Origin: a virus
Length of the DNA: 45,429 nt
Direction: 5' to 3' (one strand)
Virus record (IMG/VR): IMGVR_UViG_3300044608_001918
Location: 1 to 45,429 of that record
The notes below the pieces were generated by a model. It was not told the DNA's origin, did no database searches, and worked only from the letters and a program-made list of their open reading frames with translations. Below, piece after piece: positions 14,836 to 44,140 of the stretch. Numbering within the stretch: the first letter of the stretch is position 1; each line of letters begins with the position of its first letter. The position numbers and the translations under genes are program-made.

Positions 14836-15669
14836 CTAGCTGGCTACGAGTACCGGGGTCTGCGGGGCGTGCTCGCGAATCTGGCCCCAGTCGATGTAGG
14901 CCTGTGCCGCGAGTGCGGCGGTCCTGTGGCCAAGGTGAAGGCTCGCCTTGCCAGGCATGGCCATCTCGATGTGAGTGGCCCCAGACCTGCGCAACCACTT
15001 CGACGTGCCAGGCAGGCCGGCGGCACGGCAAAGCTGCTGCCACCACCGCATTGCTTGGCGTGGCTTGCAGGCCCATCCAACAATCCGGCCGTCAGGAGAA
15101 CGCTTGAGCATCCGCTGGCAGGCTTCGACGCAGGCCGGCGTCATTACCTTGTGCAGCGGGTCGCCGGTCTTGCTCTGCGTCCATCGCAGAATGTTGCCGT
15201 CCAAGTGATCGGCACGAAACGCCCAAATGTCGCCGTGCCTGCTTCCAGACTCGTATCCGAGAAGCGTCCAGGCCGTGAGGAAGTCGCCGATGTCGGCACC
15301 GCTGCGAAGCAGGTGGCCGCGGTATTCGGAAGCCTTTGCCAACAGCGTCCGCACCTGGTCGACGGTCCAGGCCCGCGTCGGAGACTTCTTGGCCTTGATC
15401 CGCATGACGCCGCGAGGCGCCTCGTCGATCATTCGCGTTTCGTATGCCCACCGCCACAGCGAAAGCAGCATTACCCGGTCGCTCTTGGCGGTGATCGCAG
15501 ATACGGACTCCAGCCGCTTCCGCAGGTAGGCGTTCACGGCATCGGCCGTGACAACCGTCGCCCTGCCGGCCAGCGACTTCATGTTGTGGCGGTAGAGTTT
15601 GCAGACAACTCGCTCCGCCAAATACCGATCCGCAATCGACTTGAACGTCAAAGGCTTTTGCTTACGCAT
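14836..15669 (-). CDS. Tyrosine recombinase (recombination-module copy)
   Basis: This 277-residue tyrosine recombinase starts at ATG 15669, with GGAGG six bases upstream; a TTG at 15684 is less likely. Catalytic positions visible are Arg144 (YESGSRHGD), Lys167 (TQSKTGD), Arg227 (KWLRRSG, where the usual His-x-x-Arg box has Lys instead of His), His248 (LGHRTAA) and Tyr258 (AQAYID). The N-terminal SAM-like domain is short. It sits between Sak4 and SSB-like genes rather than beside attP, so dimer resolution or another internal rearrangement is a reasonable guess. It is a clear paralogue of the integrase at 18599. Confidence 0.82.
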   Translation of the reverse strand: MRKQKPLTFKSIADRYLAERVVCKLYRHNMKSLAGRATVVTADAVNAYLRKRLESVSAITAKSDRVMLLSLWRWAYETRMIDEAPRGVMRIKAKKSPTRAWTVDQVRTLLAKASEYRGHLLRSGADIGDFLTAWTLLGYESGSRHGDIWAFRADHLDGNILRWTQSKTGDPLHKVMTPACVEACQRMLKRSPDGRIVGWACKPRQAMRWWQQLCRAAGLPGTSKWLRRSGATHIEMAMPGKASLHLGHRTAALAAQAYIDWGQIREHAPQTPVLVAS

Positions 15670-16585
15670 CGGCGGCCTCCGCAAACGCAGCCGGCTCGAG
15701 CACCCGATGCCGCTCGTCGACGAGCCCGCGGAGCGTGGCCACCTGGTCGGCGGTTAGCTTGCCGCGGCTCTCCATGTCGTCCACCAGGTCGCCGATCTCG
15801 CCGAGAGCCTCGACAGTCTCGGCATCGGCAATCCGCTCGCGGAGCGTCGGCTGCTTGGCTGGCTTCGGCCCCGACTCCCACAGGTGCGAGAGCGACGTGA
15901 TGGCCATGGGAAGTTCCGCGTCCAGGCCGTAGCGGTTTTTGGCGTCGAAGGCGGCTGTGTGCTGCGTGTGCAGCACCCGCTCCTTGCCGCCGCGGGCCTT
16001 GGTGCGGCCGTCCGACCCCTCGACCATTGCGACCTTCCAGTTGCAGAACAGCAGGGCGTCGGCCCACTCGCGGAACAGCGGCCCCGACTGCTTCGTCAGC
16101 TTGAGCTGCCAGCGGTCGTAGCCGTCGAGCTCGTCCGGCGGGCTGACCCGCTTGACCTCGCTATGAGCCACAAAGACGACGTGCAGGCCGCGATCCATGA
16201 GCTGATCGGCCAACGACAGCAGGCGAGTAATTTGCTCGGCCACCATCACGTAACCCTTGCCAAAGCCGAAATCCTCAATGGATCGCTTGTTGGCTTTGGA
16301 CTTGATCGCCTCGATTACGTGCCTCTCCGCCCAATCGGCCGAGTCAATCACCACGCTTTTGAACCCCTGCGAGTCACGAACGAGCTCGTGCATCGCTCCT
16401 TCCAGAGTCACCCAATCGGGGCAAGAAACGCGGGCCACGTCGAGCTGCCTTGTGCCATCTTCCGTGTCCAGCACGACAGGATTGGGGAACTGGCTTGCCA
16501 GGGTCGTCTTGCCGATGCCCTCCAAGCCGTACAGCACAATGCCAACTGGAGAAGCTTGCTTCCCGCGAATGATTTTCAGAGCCAT
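15662..16585 (-). CDS. Sak4-like recombination ATPase
   Basis: This 307-residue P-loop ATPase has Walker A GLEGIGKTT (residues 20-28), a Walker B-like SVVIDSADW near residue 75-82, and VFVAHSEVKRV as the next RecA-core strand. The arrangement matches phage Sak4 proteins, RecA-related annealing/recombination ATPases that work with SSB. The C-terminal part is helical and charged. ATG 16585 has AAGGA upstream; the longer frame to 16912 is shadow sequence. It overlaps both the small membrane gene upstream and the recombinase downstream. Confidence 0.8.
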   Translation of the reverse strand: MALKIIRGKQASPVGIVLYGLEGIGKTTLASQFPNPVVLDTEDGTRQLDVARVSCPDWVTLEGAMHELVRDSQGFKSVVIDSADWAERHVIEAIKSKANKRSIEDFGFGKGYVMVAEQITRLLSLADQLMDRGLHVVFVAHSEVKRVSPPDELDGYDRWQLKLTKQSGPLFREWADALLFCNWKVAMVEGSDGRTKARGGKERVLHTQHTAAFDAKNRYGLDAELPMAITSLSHLWESGPKPAKQPTLRERIADAETVEALGEIGDLVDDMESRGKLTADQVATLRGLVDERHRVLEPAAFAEAADA

Positions 16586-18051: not shown

Positions 18052-18288
18052 CTAAGAAGCCAGCTTTTGCACCGACACGCCGAGAGCGTCAGCGATGCGA
18101 CAGGCGGTATCGAGGCGAGGCTTGGCCTTCCCCATCAGCAACGCCCACAGACCTTCGTAGGTCATGTCGGCCTTCTCGGCGAGATCGCGCCGCGACATTC
18201 CACGCTTGGCTGCCATGGCTTCAATCCGTTTGCCCCAGGCACACGGTTCCTTTTGTCGGGGCCGTCCCCCTGGGTGTCTCTGAGCCAT
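18052..18288 (-). CDS. XRE-family (Cro/CI-like) HTH repressor
   Basis: This 78-residue protein starts at ATG 18288 with GGAGGG eight bases upstream. Residues about 20-75 form a single HTH_3 domain: RIEAMAAKRGMSRRDLAEKADMTYEGLWALLMGKAKPRLDTACRIADALG. It has no oligomerisation or protease-sensitive domain, so it is more like Cro or a minimal repressor than lambda CI. It lies between attP and the early promoter and points toward the operator. The ORF extended to 18450 would run through the attP tRNA fragment and was rejected. It is probably the lysogeny switch protein. Confidence 0.8.
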   Translation of the reverse strand: MAQRHPGGRPRQKEPCAWGKRIEAMAAKRGMSRRDLAEKADMTYEGLWALLMGKAKPRLDTACRIADALGVSVQKLAS

Positions 18289-18328
18289 GATCGCTGCCCT
18301 CCGTGGAGTGTATGGCGTTTGCCTCCAG

Positions 18329-18360
18329 CGGTGCCTGGCCATATGGTTGACCAGGCACCG
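18329..18360. repeat. Perfect hairpin beside attP
   Basis: cggtgcctgg and ccaggcaccg form a 10-bp stem with a 12-base loop (ccatatggttga) ending five bases from the tRNA-like 3' end. It may be a recombinase arm site, a terminator of the tRNA-directed transcript, or part of the XRE leader. No T run supports a strong terminator. Confidence 0.45.
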
Positions 18361-18364
18361 CAAA

Positions 18365-18425
18365 TACACCCCGCTGGGCTCGAACCAGCAACCTTCGGTT
18401 CCGTAGACCGATGCTCTACTGGAAC
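18365..18425 (-). other. Candidate attP: 3' part of tRNA-Arg(ACG)
   Basis: Read on the minus strand, this carries the 3' two-thirds of a tRNA: the 3' D-stem GAGC, a 5-bp anticodon stem (TCGGT/ACCGA) with loop CTACGGA (anticodon ACG, Arg), a variable AGGTT, a 5-bp T stem (GCTGG/CCAGC) with loop TTCGAGC, the acceptor 3' strand GGGGTGT and discriminator A. The acceptor 5' strand and a proper D arm are missing, so it is not a functional tRNA. This is what a phage attP core looks like when integration is into a tRNA 3' end. The integrase starts 174 bases away. Confidence 0.78.
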
Positions 18426-18478
18426 TGAACGAAGCAGGATCGGCCCACAAGGTAGCAGCAAGACCAACCTTGCCGAAT

Positions 18479-18497
18479 ACCGGATTTGCCGGTTTTT
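18479..18497 (+). terminator. Weak intrinsic terminator-like hairpin
   Basis: ACCGG and CCGGT form a 5-bp stem with a 5-base loop, followed by TTTT on the plus strand. It could end transcription entering from attP before int. The stem is short, so efficiency would be low. The remaining bases up to the int start (18498-18598) show no clear promoter. Confidence 0.35.
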
Positions 18498-18598
18498 CGG
18501 GGCGTTTGACGGTGCCGCGTCGGGCCGGAAACTGACGCGAACCTCGCCGCGAGTGGGGGCGGAGTCCCCTCGTTGCGGTACGCCACGAGGATCGCGAT

Positions 18599-19993: not shown

Positions 19994-20047
19994 GTATTTC
20001 GATGGCCGCCCGCGAGTATTTCGATAGACCGCGACGAGTATTTCGAT
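19994..20047 (+). repeat. Three direct iterons GTATTTCGAT, 22-bp period
   Basis: The 10-mer starts at 19994, 20016 and 20038, so repeats face the same side of the helix two turns apart. Inverted copies lie at 20095-20104 and 20267-20276. The outer pair extends to a perfect 17-bp inverted repeat (GGGGTATTTCGATGGCC). Single copies also occur at 8872, 25806, 27825 and 37603. Confidence 0.8.
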
Positions 20048-20295
20048 AGACGATGGCCGCTCACCTGGCCGGCTGATGGCCGGCCAGGTCTGCTATCGAA
20101 ATACTCGTGAGCTCACGCCCGGCCATCGTGGCCGTTCACCTGGCCGACGTGGCCGGCAGCAACGGCCGACGATGGCCGCTGGTGAGCGGCCATCTCCGGC
20201 CGACGTGGCCGTTCACCTGGCCGACGAGCGGCCGACATGGCCGGGCGTGGCCGCTCGTGACCGGCCATCGAAATACCCCCACAATGGCGACCAAA

Positions 20296-22029: not shown

Positions 22030-22974
22030 ATGCCCGCGACAACGACAACCCGCCCCGACGTTTACCAGACCGTTACCGACGCCATCGTGGCCCGGCTCGA
22101 AGCCGGCGACGTGGCCCCCTGGCATCAGCCGTGGAAGGCCGGCCACGCGGCCGGCCCGACGTGTCGACCGCTCCGCCACAACGGCCAGCCGTACAGCGGA
22201 ATCAATGTGCTCATGTTGTGGATGGCCGCCGAGGCCAAGGGCTACACGGCCCCGCTCTGGCTCACGTTCAAGCAGGCTACCGACTTTGGCGGCCACGTCC
22301 GGAAGGGTGAGAAGTCGACCACCGTGGTCTACGCTTCGACGTTCAAGAGGACGGAAACCAGCGACGACGGCACGAAGGTAGACCGCTCGATACCGTTCCT
22401 CAAAACCTACGCCGTATTCAACGCCGAACAATGCGACGGCCTGCCCGCTCGTTTCACGGAGCAGGTCCCGCCGCCGGCCGGACACGTCGACCCGCTGCCC
22501 GCCGTGCTCGACTTTGCCCGCCACACCGGCGCCGACATTCGCACCGGCGGCGCCCGTGCTTACTACACGCCGACCGGCGACTACGTGCAGATGCCCGAGG
22601 CGGCCACGTTCGAGAGCCCCGAGGCCCACGCGGCCACGCTGGCCCACGAGCTCGCACATTGGACGGGCCACGGCTCCCGCCTGGCTCGTGACTTCAAGGC
22701 TTCGAAGCGCTTCGGCGACGACGCCTACGCGGCCGAAGAACTTGTCGCCGAACTGGCCGCGGCTTTCCTGGCCGCCGATCTAGGCTTCGAAGCCACGCCC
22801 CGCGACGACCACGCCGCCTACCTGGCCTCGTGGCTCCGCGTGATGAAGGCCGACAAGCGGGCCATTTTCACCGCCGCCAGCGCGGCCAGCCGGGCGGCCG
22901 CCTACCTGCACTCGCTCCAGCCGGGCGGGGCCAACGTCCTGGCCGAGGAGCTCGAGCCCGCCGCCGCGGAATGA
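22030..22974 (+). CDS. ardC: ArdC-like antirestriction protein
   Basis: This 314-residue protein has both ArdC parts. The N-terminal ssDNA-binding domain (DVYQTVTDAIVARLEAGDVAPWHQPW, GQPYSGINVLMLW) is followed by a zinc-metallopeptidase-like domain with HELAHWTGH (206-214) and a downstream Glu in AAEELVAEL as the third ligand. ArdC proteins bind incoming single strands and counter host restriction. It heads the P2 unit with ribosome site AAGGAG. Its N-terminal domain is also found with plasmid primases, and a Prim-Pol lies nearby. Expression in a lysogeny-side block fits protection during entry or transfer. Confidence 0.88.
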   Translation: MPATTTTRPDVYQTVTDAIVARLEAGDVAPWHQPWKAGHAAGPTCRPLRHNGQPYSGINVLMLWMAAEAKGYTAPLWLTFKQATDFGGHVRKGEKSTTVVYASTFKRTETSDDGTKVDRSIPFLKTYAVFNAEQCDGLPARFTEQVPPPAGHVDPLPAVLDFARHTGADIRTGGARAYYTPTGDYVQMPEAATFESPEAHAATLAHELAHWTGHGSRLARDFKASKRFGDDAYAAEELVAELAAAFLAADLGFEATPRDDHAAYLASWLRVMKADKRAIFTAASAASRAAAYLHSLQPGGANVLAEELEPAAAE

Positions 22975-33029: not shown

Positions 33030-35044
33030 TGAACGCTGACCTCTAGTGCGCCAAGCTCGCAGCGACGAATGGGGCTATATCCCCATACAGTTCGGACGAA
33101 AATGTCCCCTTCGTCTCGGACCATCACTTGATTACCCCAGCTTTCGCCCTTTTTTGTCCCGGTGACAATAGGGCCGAAACGCTCCCACGCTGAATAGTTC
33201 TTGCATGGCACCGGCTCAATCGGCGTCGTCGTGTCGACGTATGTCTGGATGTAGTACTTGCCGGCGGTCGTTATCGTGACTCCGTTGAGTTGCTTGCCGT
33301 AATACTGGCCCGGGTCGTTGACCTGAACGGATTCGATTTCGCCAGTGCTGCGAAAAAAAAGACCGCCGTCATAAATCTGAACAGATGTTATTGCGCCGTT
33401 TTCGTCGACTGAATCGACGATTGCGAAGAAATAAGAAGATGGGGACTGCTGGCCGGTGGTCGTCGCCTGAAGCTGATCCCAGACGGCGTAGCCCGTCCCT
33501 CCGTCAGTGATCGTGACAGACGAAATGGCCCACGCTGGCCGGCTCGGCCACTCCGCCCCGTCGCTCGTTTCCGTAAGCGTGATGGAGAAATCTGCCCCGG
33601 TGCCGGAGCCAACGATACCGACGCCAACGTCTGGTTCTTCGCGGCCTGTCCTTGCAAACGCAATCGCGCCTGAGTCGATGCCTGTGTTCTCGGCTGAAAA
33701 AACAACCGGCTCCATGTCATCGTATCCATTCGTCAATCCTGAGACGCTAACAGACGCGACGCCCCAGGTGGGCGGGGTCGATCCGTTTGGAGTAACAGAA
33801 ACTGTGAATGTGCCTCCGGTTCCGCCGCCGATTTTTGCCGTTAGAGTTGGCGCTACGCGCGAGACGTTCAGAACGGCAGTAGCCTCCGCCTCGACAACAA
33901 TGTCTGGCCCACCGGCAGCGCTGAACGTCACGGCATCCCCGTCCTCCCACCCGCTGCCGGCGGTCGTCACCGAAACAGACTGGACCGACCAGGTCGCCGA
34001 CAGCCCCGTTCCCTGCTGCGCTAAAGTCACCGACAAATCCATCCCGGATGTGTTTGCCGGTGGTATGGCAGACACGGTGGGCTCAAGTCTGGCTCGCGTG
34101 ACTTGCACGCCAGAAAGCCCGCTGAGGTAGTTTTTGTATTTCTCAAACCCAAACGGAAACCCGCCGTCATACACCTGCACTTCAGACAGCGCGCCGCCTG
34201 GCCCCTTAAACACAGGATGCAAGTAGGGAAAGTCTCCAGATCCGTTGAGTACTTTTGCCTCGAGGACCGGGCCTTGCCCGCTTGTCACTGGAGTCCCCGA
34301 AACCGCTACGGAATTGAGCCGCCAGTATGGCCGTCCGTAGTCGTCCGCTTTTTGTTGAATAGTGGGCGTCAGAACTACAGGATGCTCTACGGTTTTGTTT
34401 TGCGCTTCGTCAAAGTAGAGAGCTTTGATCTGAACCTCGGGTGGCCTTCTGTCTCGGTGCTTTAGGACGCTGAGACTCGCCGAGCTGGCGAATGATCCGA
34501 AGCCCGCCAGGCTGCGCAGCGTGACGAACTCGTTGCCGTACAGCCCTTCCTGCGGAAAAACCGTCGGCGCGCCGGACTCCGTTGCGTTCAAGTATCGACC
34601 AGTGGCGTTGGTCGTGAAGTCAGCCGTGAATTGCAACTCGCTTTGTTCTGCGTAAGCGCAGTTCACACCAGGAACCGTGCCCTTCGTCCACGTTTTGTCG
34701 CTCCACTCACTGGGAGGCTCAATTGGGCCAAAAGGCGATGAAAGTGGATTGCCAGACGGCGGCAGGCGCGTGGCCTCCGACCCGCATACCTGGAAGCCGT
34801 GCTGAATAAAACAGCAGATGTCTAGGGCTGCGGTGACGCCTGTTTCTTCGCAAACGAGATCATAGGAAGGGGCGGCTATGTAGCCGTCGAGGCCGTAGCC
34901 GTATATCCCCTCCTGAAAGATTTGCCCCTCGCCGCCCCCAGTCGTGAAGTCCAGCACGACCTGCTCCGGCTCGTCCGTGCAGACAAGACACACGCGACAC
35001 TCGTCGTTAGCCTTGCAACACGGATTGCACTCGCTTCCGAGCAT
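33026..35044 (-). CDS. Tail-tip / receptor-proximal protein, Cys-rich start and repeated beta modules
   Basis: This is a 672-residue protein. ATG 35044 was chosen over 35086, which overlaps the upstream gene. The N-terminus is Cys-rich (cysteines at about residues 6, 9, 10, 16, 19 and 22), probably binding a metal. From about residue 330 a beta module of the type SVSVTTAGSGWEDGDAVTFSA repeats three to four times with varied sequence (TITDGGTGYAVWDQL, VSGLTNGYDDMEPVVF). Such modules occur in phage tail-tip and fibre proteins. It lies after two other tail genes and the tape measure. GC content is slightly lower than elsewhere. Confidence 0.7.
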   Translation of the reverse strand: MLGSECNPCCKANDECRVCLVCTDEPEQVVLDFTTGGGEGQIFQEGIYGYGLDGYIAAPSYDLVCEETGVTAALDICCFIQHGFQVCGSEATRLPPSGNPLSSPFGPIEPPSEWSDKTWTKGTVPGVNCAYAEQSELQFTADFTTNATGRYLNATESGAPTVFPQEGLYGNEFVTLRSLAGFGSFASSASLSVLKHRDRRPPEVQIKALYFDEAQNKTVEHPVVLTPTIQQKADDYGRPYWRLNSVAVSGTPVTSGQGPVLEAKVLNGSGDFPYLHPVFKGPGGALSEVQVYDGGFPFGFEKYKNYLSGLSGVQVTRARLEPTVSAIPPANTSGMDLSVTLAQQGTGLSATWSVQSVSVTTAGSGWEDGDAVTFSAAGGPDIVVEAEATAVLNVSRVAPTLTAKIGGGTGGTFTVSVTPNGSTPPTWGVASVSVSGLTNGYDDMEPVVFSAENTGIDSGAIAFARTGREEPDVGVGIVGSGTGADFSITLTETSDGAEWPSRPAWAISSVTITDGGTGYAVWDQLQATTTGQQSPSSYFFAIVDSVDENGAITSVQIYDGGLFFRSTGEIESVQVNDPGQYYGKQLNGVTITTAGKYYIQTYVDTTTPIEPVPCKNYSAWERFGPIVTGTKKGESWGNQVMVRDEGDIFVRTVWGYSPIRRCELGALEVSVQ

Positions 35045-44027: not shown

Positions 44028-44140
44028 CATCTACGGTGAGTAAAGCCGCCCCGCGCTGCCTAAGAGCATGAAGCCCGTGAGCCGCGTGGAACGCGACCGT
44101 TCAGCAGGCCGCAGGGAGGCTGTACTCTGTGGGTGTACGG

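Follow-up and report, generated by a model that had tools for sequence, protein, structure and literature searches.

The window, that is, the whole 45,429-nucleotide stretch of viral DNA analysed here (IMG/VR record IMGVR_UViG_3300044608_001918), almost certainly belongs to a temperate Planctomycetota phage and contains the common core of its attP, which the phage tyrosine integrase joins to the tRNA-Arg(ACG) gene of the host. The kind of site is well known: on the basis of an exact host match, linkage to the integrase gene (int) and an integrated relative, it is an ordinary attP consisting of a tRNA 3' half, which restores the tRNA upon integration. As originally predicted, the segment sits between the XRE gene and int (Table 1).

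Table 1. Features of the attP region and other elements observed in the window
Feature	Position	Strand	Remarks
Second, distant tyrosine recombinase	14836-15684	-	29% identity to int; PHROG integrase 3.6e-19
Small XRE-type HTH gene, RHPGGRPR arm	18052-18288	-	First gene past the tRNA end, same strand as the tRNA; Pfam HTH_3 7.6e-09
Inverted repeat	18328-18361	.	3 nt past the tRNA 3' end; arms 18328-18341 and 18348-18361; probable accessory (arm) region of attP; lacks a T run
attP common core, 50 bp	18365-18414	-	3' part of tRNA-Arg(ACG), allele GCTGG/CCAGC
Core, 46-mer	18365-18410	-	Exact copies in viral and genome contigs
Core, GCAT	18411-18414	-	
TAGA beside core	18415-18418	-	Extends host tRNA identity (window versus host loci); varies among relatives
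Core-int stretch (P-arm side)	18419-18598	.	Degenerate inverted core-like site TCTACTGGAACTG, + strand, beside the core
Tyrosine integrase (int), 297 aa	18599-19492	+	PHROG integrase 1.4e-15
Repeated GGCCG/CGGCC words and copies of GTATTTCGATAG	20000-20280		Past the PDZ gene
ArdC-like anti-restriction protein	22030-22974	+	Pfam ArdcN 3.7e-44, MPTase-PolyVal 8.3e-49
Rfam DUF3800-VIII RNA match	44045-44120	-	41.2 versus gathering 40.2, barely above

The minus strand of the core exactly reproduces, over 50 bases, the 3' portion of a planctomycete tRNA-Arg(ACG), beginning just 5' of the anticodon stem and ending at the discriminator base. Compared with the host genes seen, identity comprises TAGAGCAT plus the 46-mer, 54 bases in total, and reaches position 18418. 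The core includes the anticodon stem TCGGT/ACCGA, the T stem GCTGG/CCAGC, the 3' acceptor strand GGGGTGT and the discriminator A, and its anticodon loop (CTACGGA) and T loop (TTCGAGC) read exactly as described before. The original prediction of a tRNA fold lacking the 5' acceptor strand agreed with the Rfam tRNA model, which matched minus-strand positions 18430-18373 (31.8 bits, gathering 29; model positions 10-63 of 71, without the acceptor stem). The D-stem 5' side in this alignment did not hold up: host identity begins at TAGAGCAT (18418), and thus that side is phage flank that pairs fortuitously. No tRNA could be found by ARAGORN in the whole window, as expected when the 5' acceptor strand is missing.

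The exact 46-mer could be identified in 43 genome contigs, 42 of which were titled planctomycetes (Schlesneria, Planctomycetaceae and some Kuenenia, all Planctomycetota) and one only 'bacterium'. At all 43 loci it completed an intact tRNA-Arg(ACG) as detected by ARAGORN, and the bases immediately upstream were identical throughout (GCACCCCTAGCTCAATTGGATAGAGCAT). Thus, the anticipated bacterial tRNA-Arg(ACG) exists, with exact matches that end at the tRNA 3' end in 43 out of 43 cases. GCAT followed by the 46-mer was present in 28 out of 72 genomes of one family but in only 1 out of 392 genomes drawn across the phylum, which was the centre genome itself. On this basis, the suggestion that the core could identify the host holds for the phylum and a few Planctomycetota families, but not for the species. 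Chance matching could be excluded: the 46-mer occurred in 70 IMG/VR contigs versus none for a control 46-mer from the integrase gene, and a backward-pattern control gave no match in either the 72 family genomes or the 392 phylum genomes. In addition, two host contigs (L072 and L095) stop exactly at the tRNA 3' end, and a third (L080, from the same bin as L072) begins with an overlap that stops there. Such ends would fit integration in nature, where one upstream sequence has several continuations in the assembly graph.

To characterize the viral side, we examined the contigs sharing this core. GCAT preceded the 46-mer in the window and in all 70 viral copies, and the remaining flanks were mostly dissimilar. 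Half-tRNAs of two further host alleles were detected, one in 55 viral contigs and the other in 3, and GCA followed by a 47-mer was common to all 128 contigs with the three alleles. In 119 of them, a divergently oriented relative of int (44-82% identity) was located 73-248 bp upstream of the core; in the other nine, the contig begins no more than 240 bp from the core. A complete tRNA was found in none of the 128 core-bearing contigs. It should be noted that a protein-based scan of viral contigs recovered only 10 loci, the DNA pattern being far more productive. A related integrase (44% identity) at locus L115 (G022:C68) has a different tRNA-like 3' half downstream, near position 2552 of the locus, which is perhaps another target.

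In the window, the core is 184 bp from int, and a tyrosine integrase gene thus adjoins attP. HxxR is a catalytic motif of tyrosine recombinases. The catalytic R, K, R and Y of int are kept in the aligned relatives, and its residue 238, at the position of the HxxR His, is Lys in the window and in 102 out of 104 aligned relatives. The protein scored 23.4 bits against Pfam Phage_integrase, below the cut-off of 27.1, and no match could be observed by tblastn against 50,697 GenBank phages, nor any among solved structures. The second recombinase of the window also reads KWLRR in this motif; comparable second recombinases, on the tRNA strand and at most 5 kb after the core, were present in 12 of the 63 viral loci long enough.

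Evidence of integration came from a relative in contig C154 of G073, a genome belonging to the same family. Its int (positions 406-1188) is 51% identical to that of the window, and a prophage of 34.2 kb lies between a tRNA 3' fragment (221-272) and a complete tRNA-Arg(ACG) (34449-34524). The direct repeat spans 55 bp, from GCAT to TTCGG. An XRE gene of the window type follows the complete tRNA, host-like sequence follows the fragment (judged by eye against other host flanks), and the contig also encodes relatives of several other window proteins, although its tRNA allele differs from that of the window. Thus, the prophage bounded by this repeat that was predicted to exist could be found, at the very junction proposed. 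This integrated form, with a flanking repeat and the tRNA restored on one side, is that of the relative only, and no lysogen of the window's own phage was found among the host genomes searched. Matches to int were detected in 5 of the 42 host genomes reached via the tRNA loci (42 of 43 loci, L080 and L072 being the same bin), one of them strong, and in none of 170 genomes in the family of the Schlesneria genome G019. A short contig of another host (G049) showed the int-core-XRE arrangement with a core equal to that host's own allele.

We also analyzed the tRNA alleles. A complete tRNA copy fitting the search pattern was present in 40 out of 72 family genomes, with three alleles only: GCTGG (28), GCAGG (6) and GAAGG (6). 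These are the same three that were found in viruses, an agreement that is partly by design because only these three were searched there, the other two having been first met in G073 and G049. Acceptor-stem position 7 is C in the GCTGG and GCAGG alleles and G in GAAGG. Its partner, position 66, is supplied by the phage half upon integration and is correspondingly G or C, so that the 7:66 pair is C-G in the former two alleles and G-C in the latter; with the wrong allele, C would face C, or G would face G, in the acceptor stem. On an integrase tree (FastTree, 105 rows including the window, each at least 230 aa), the allele changes at least 12 times (starred branches force 11 for the commonest allele), indicating that the tRNA 3' half has been repeatedly replaced among related integrases.

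The sequence identity, the host genes, the linkage to int, an integrated relative for which the two junctions were found and the matching alleles all support an attP on the 3' part of tRNA-Arg(ACG). Based on these observations, Int would recombine the core with its exact counterpart in the host gene. We infer that strand exchange takes place in or near the anticodon loop, with CTACGGA between the half-sites GCATCGGT and ACCGAAGG, and the exchange point would be the 5' end of the identity block. At one junction, the host 5' half and the phage 3' half would form an intact tRNA; at the other, the displaced host 3' half would adjoin int. For a well-paired tRNA, the 3' half brought by the phage would need to be of the same allele as the host gene. 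The window's own phage probably integrates in the same manner.

Sequences around the core were then considered as candidate integrase arm sites. The hairpin previously noticed at the edge of the segment is present, although not with the proposed size of 10 bp: it has two arms of 14 nt, 6 nt apart and 93% complementary. Inverted repeats past the core scored higher than shuffles (mean 6.30 versus 4.19; 70 distinct flanks). In 90 of the 128 viral contigs used for this count, core-like sites occurred upstream in 12 flanks (0.5 expected) and downstream in 4 (0.13 expected), a minority of flanks. Among 55 distinct viral flanks (from 71, near-copies and short flanks removed), ACCnTA past the core was found in 31, usually between +13 and +17, and AGGCAA in 28, usually between +36 and +41; neither occurred in 41 host flanks. 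These motifs and core-like sites are candidate arm sites. The palindrome past the tRNA end keeps its structure while its sequence is hypervariable among near relatives; the otherwise near-identical phages L033 and L070, for example, have both flanks in common but not the palindrome. This speaks against a simple operator of the HTH gene, as does the finding that palindromes differ where the HTH proteins are 91-99% identical (L024/L050 and L018/L055). A role as intrinsic terminator was rejected, as no T run follows.

The first gene past the tRNA end, on the tRNA strand, encoded a small HTH protein in all 120 loci with at least 350 nt downstream (out of 129, that is, 128 plus the window), its start mostly about 50-105 nt past the tRNA end (start positions estimated). 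Two types were distinguished: 61 XRE-like (type A, including the window) and 59 HTH_17/MerR-like (type B), the latter placed weakly to moderately with excisionases and directionality factors (Pfam and PHROG). The models were built from 68 entries of the same loci, and at most about half of the 120 matches are independent of training. On the integrase tree, the two types replace each other 14 times, with 12 of these changes forced by starred branches (9 of the 105 rows have no HTH label), and L211 and L213 differ in type with integrases 96% identical. Two different folds may perform a single function in this slot, or the shared core may be the point where modules are exchanged; the two readings are compatible.

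After integration, the restored tRNA would lie about 75 nt upstream of the HTH gene and in line with it. It is conceivable, although rather unlikely, that lysogeny and the host tRNA promoter are coupled through this site, the HTH gene being transcribed from that promoter in the lysogen only. The orientation of the gene on the tRNA strand in 120 out of 120 loci, and likewise in the prophage, agrees with such coupling, as does the absence of a terminator-like site from the stretch scanned around the prophage junction; on the other hand, the gene may own a promoter, and a weak terminator-like match, near the chance rate, is present in the T arm of the window. Slightly more doubtful is a broader proposal, in which the attP-adjacent slot would be one functional position and the XRE protein a recombination directionality factor or regulator of unusual fold that has repeatedly replaced an excisionase, driven by the tRNA promoter in the lysogen and so switched on by integration. 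The gene order and the lack of a terminator-like site at the prophage junction are consistent with this switch. The site does not belong to the class of integration-dependent immunity, in which attP lies inside the repressor open reading frame: the core ends 76 nt before the start of the XRE gene (the putative repressor) at 18288, and attP does not interrupt that frame.

The HTH gene also bears on whether the block might be a host tRNA fragment at attR, in a contig cut from a bacterial chromosome, instead of attP in a free genome. Although attR and attP are alike on the int side, we consider this highly improbable: the window ends are identical over 127 bp, such that the record looks complete as a genome, a conserved phage HTH gene follows the tRNA end, and no bacterial genes were seen beside the tRNA 3' end in the window. 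Such an HTH gene was absent from the complete host tRNA copies followed by 350 nt of sequence, except at the G073 prophage site; this comparison includes some sites twice, under separate locus ids. A tRNA-like decoy, or a phage tRNA gene that has decayed or been truncated, is an equally improbable alternative to an attachment site. The tRNA fold from the D arm onward, above the Rfam threshold, speaks for it; against it, the 128 viral contigs carry the segment undecayed in three exact host alleles (exact copies were searched, so decayed ones would escape), with the same 5' cut-off base and beside int, and the junctions of the integrated relative contradict it.

The attP reading can be compared with known systems, one of which is located at argW, an arginine tRNA gene. 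As far as described in PMC2951348, the KplE1 prophage at argW, with IntS and TorI, likewise combines a tRNA target, a tyrosine integrase and a small directionality factor; its core is 16 nt and the intS promoter overlaps attL, which holds the argW 3' end, whereas here the HTH gene adjoins the rebuilt tRNA. A tRNA common core is typically 30-45 bp according to the account in PMC10865867, where mycobacteriophage Boilgate at tRNA-Lys similarly has a tRNA 3'-half core near int and a functional tRNA rebuilt at one junction. In contrast with Boilgate-type sites as presented there, the core here is longer (50 bp conserved, 54 bp in the window), the host is a member of Planctomycetota, and int is found at the displaced-fragment junction, not beside the rebuilt tRNA. 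Phages with tRNA-dependent lysogeny, as outlined in the same source, also use a tyrosine integrase and an attB in a tRNA gene, but the shared sequence there is about 10 bp and the phage brings an entire tRNA, whereas the core here is long; the window, having no complete phage tRNA (ARAGORN), falls outside that class.

In the literature searched, few temperate phages of Planctomycetota have been described, and no paper on Planctomycetes and attP turned up. The core places an uncultivated phage and 128 further viral contigs in Planctomycetota and exposes a planctomycete tRNA-Arg target common to a large family of phages. The int-attP-HTH module, with its two interchangeable HTH types, provides a natural experiment on directionality factors, and the tRNA allele offers a way to predict, and to test, in which hosts lysogeny would leave the tRNA unspoiled.
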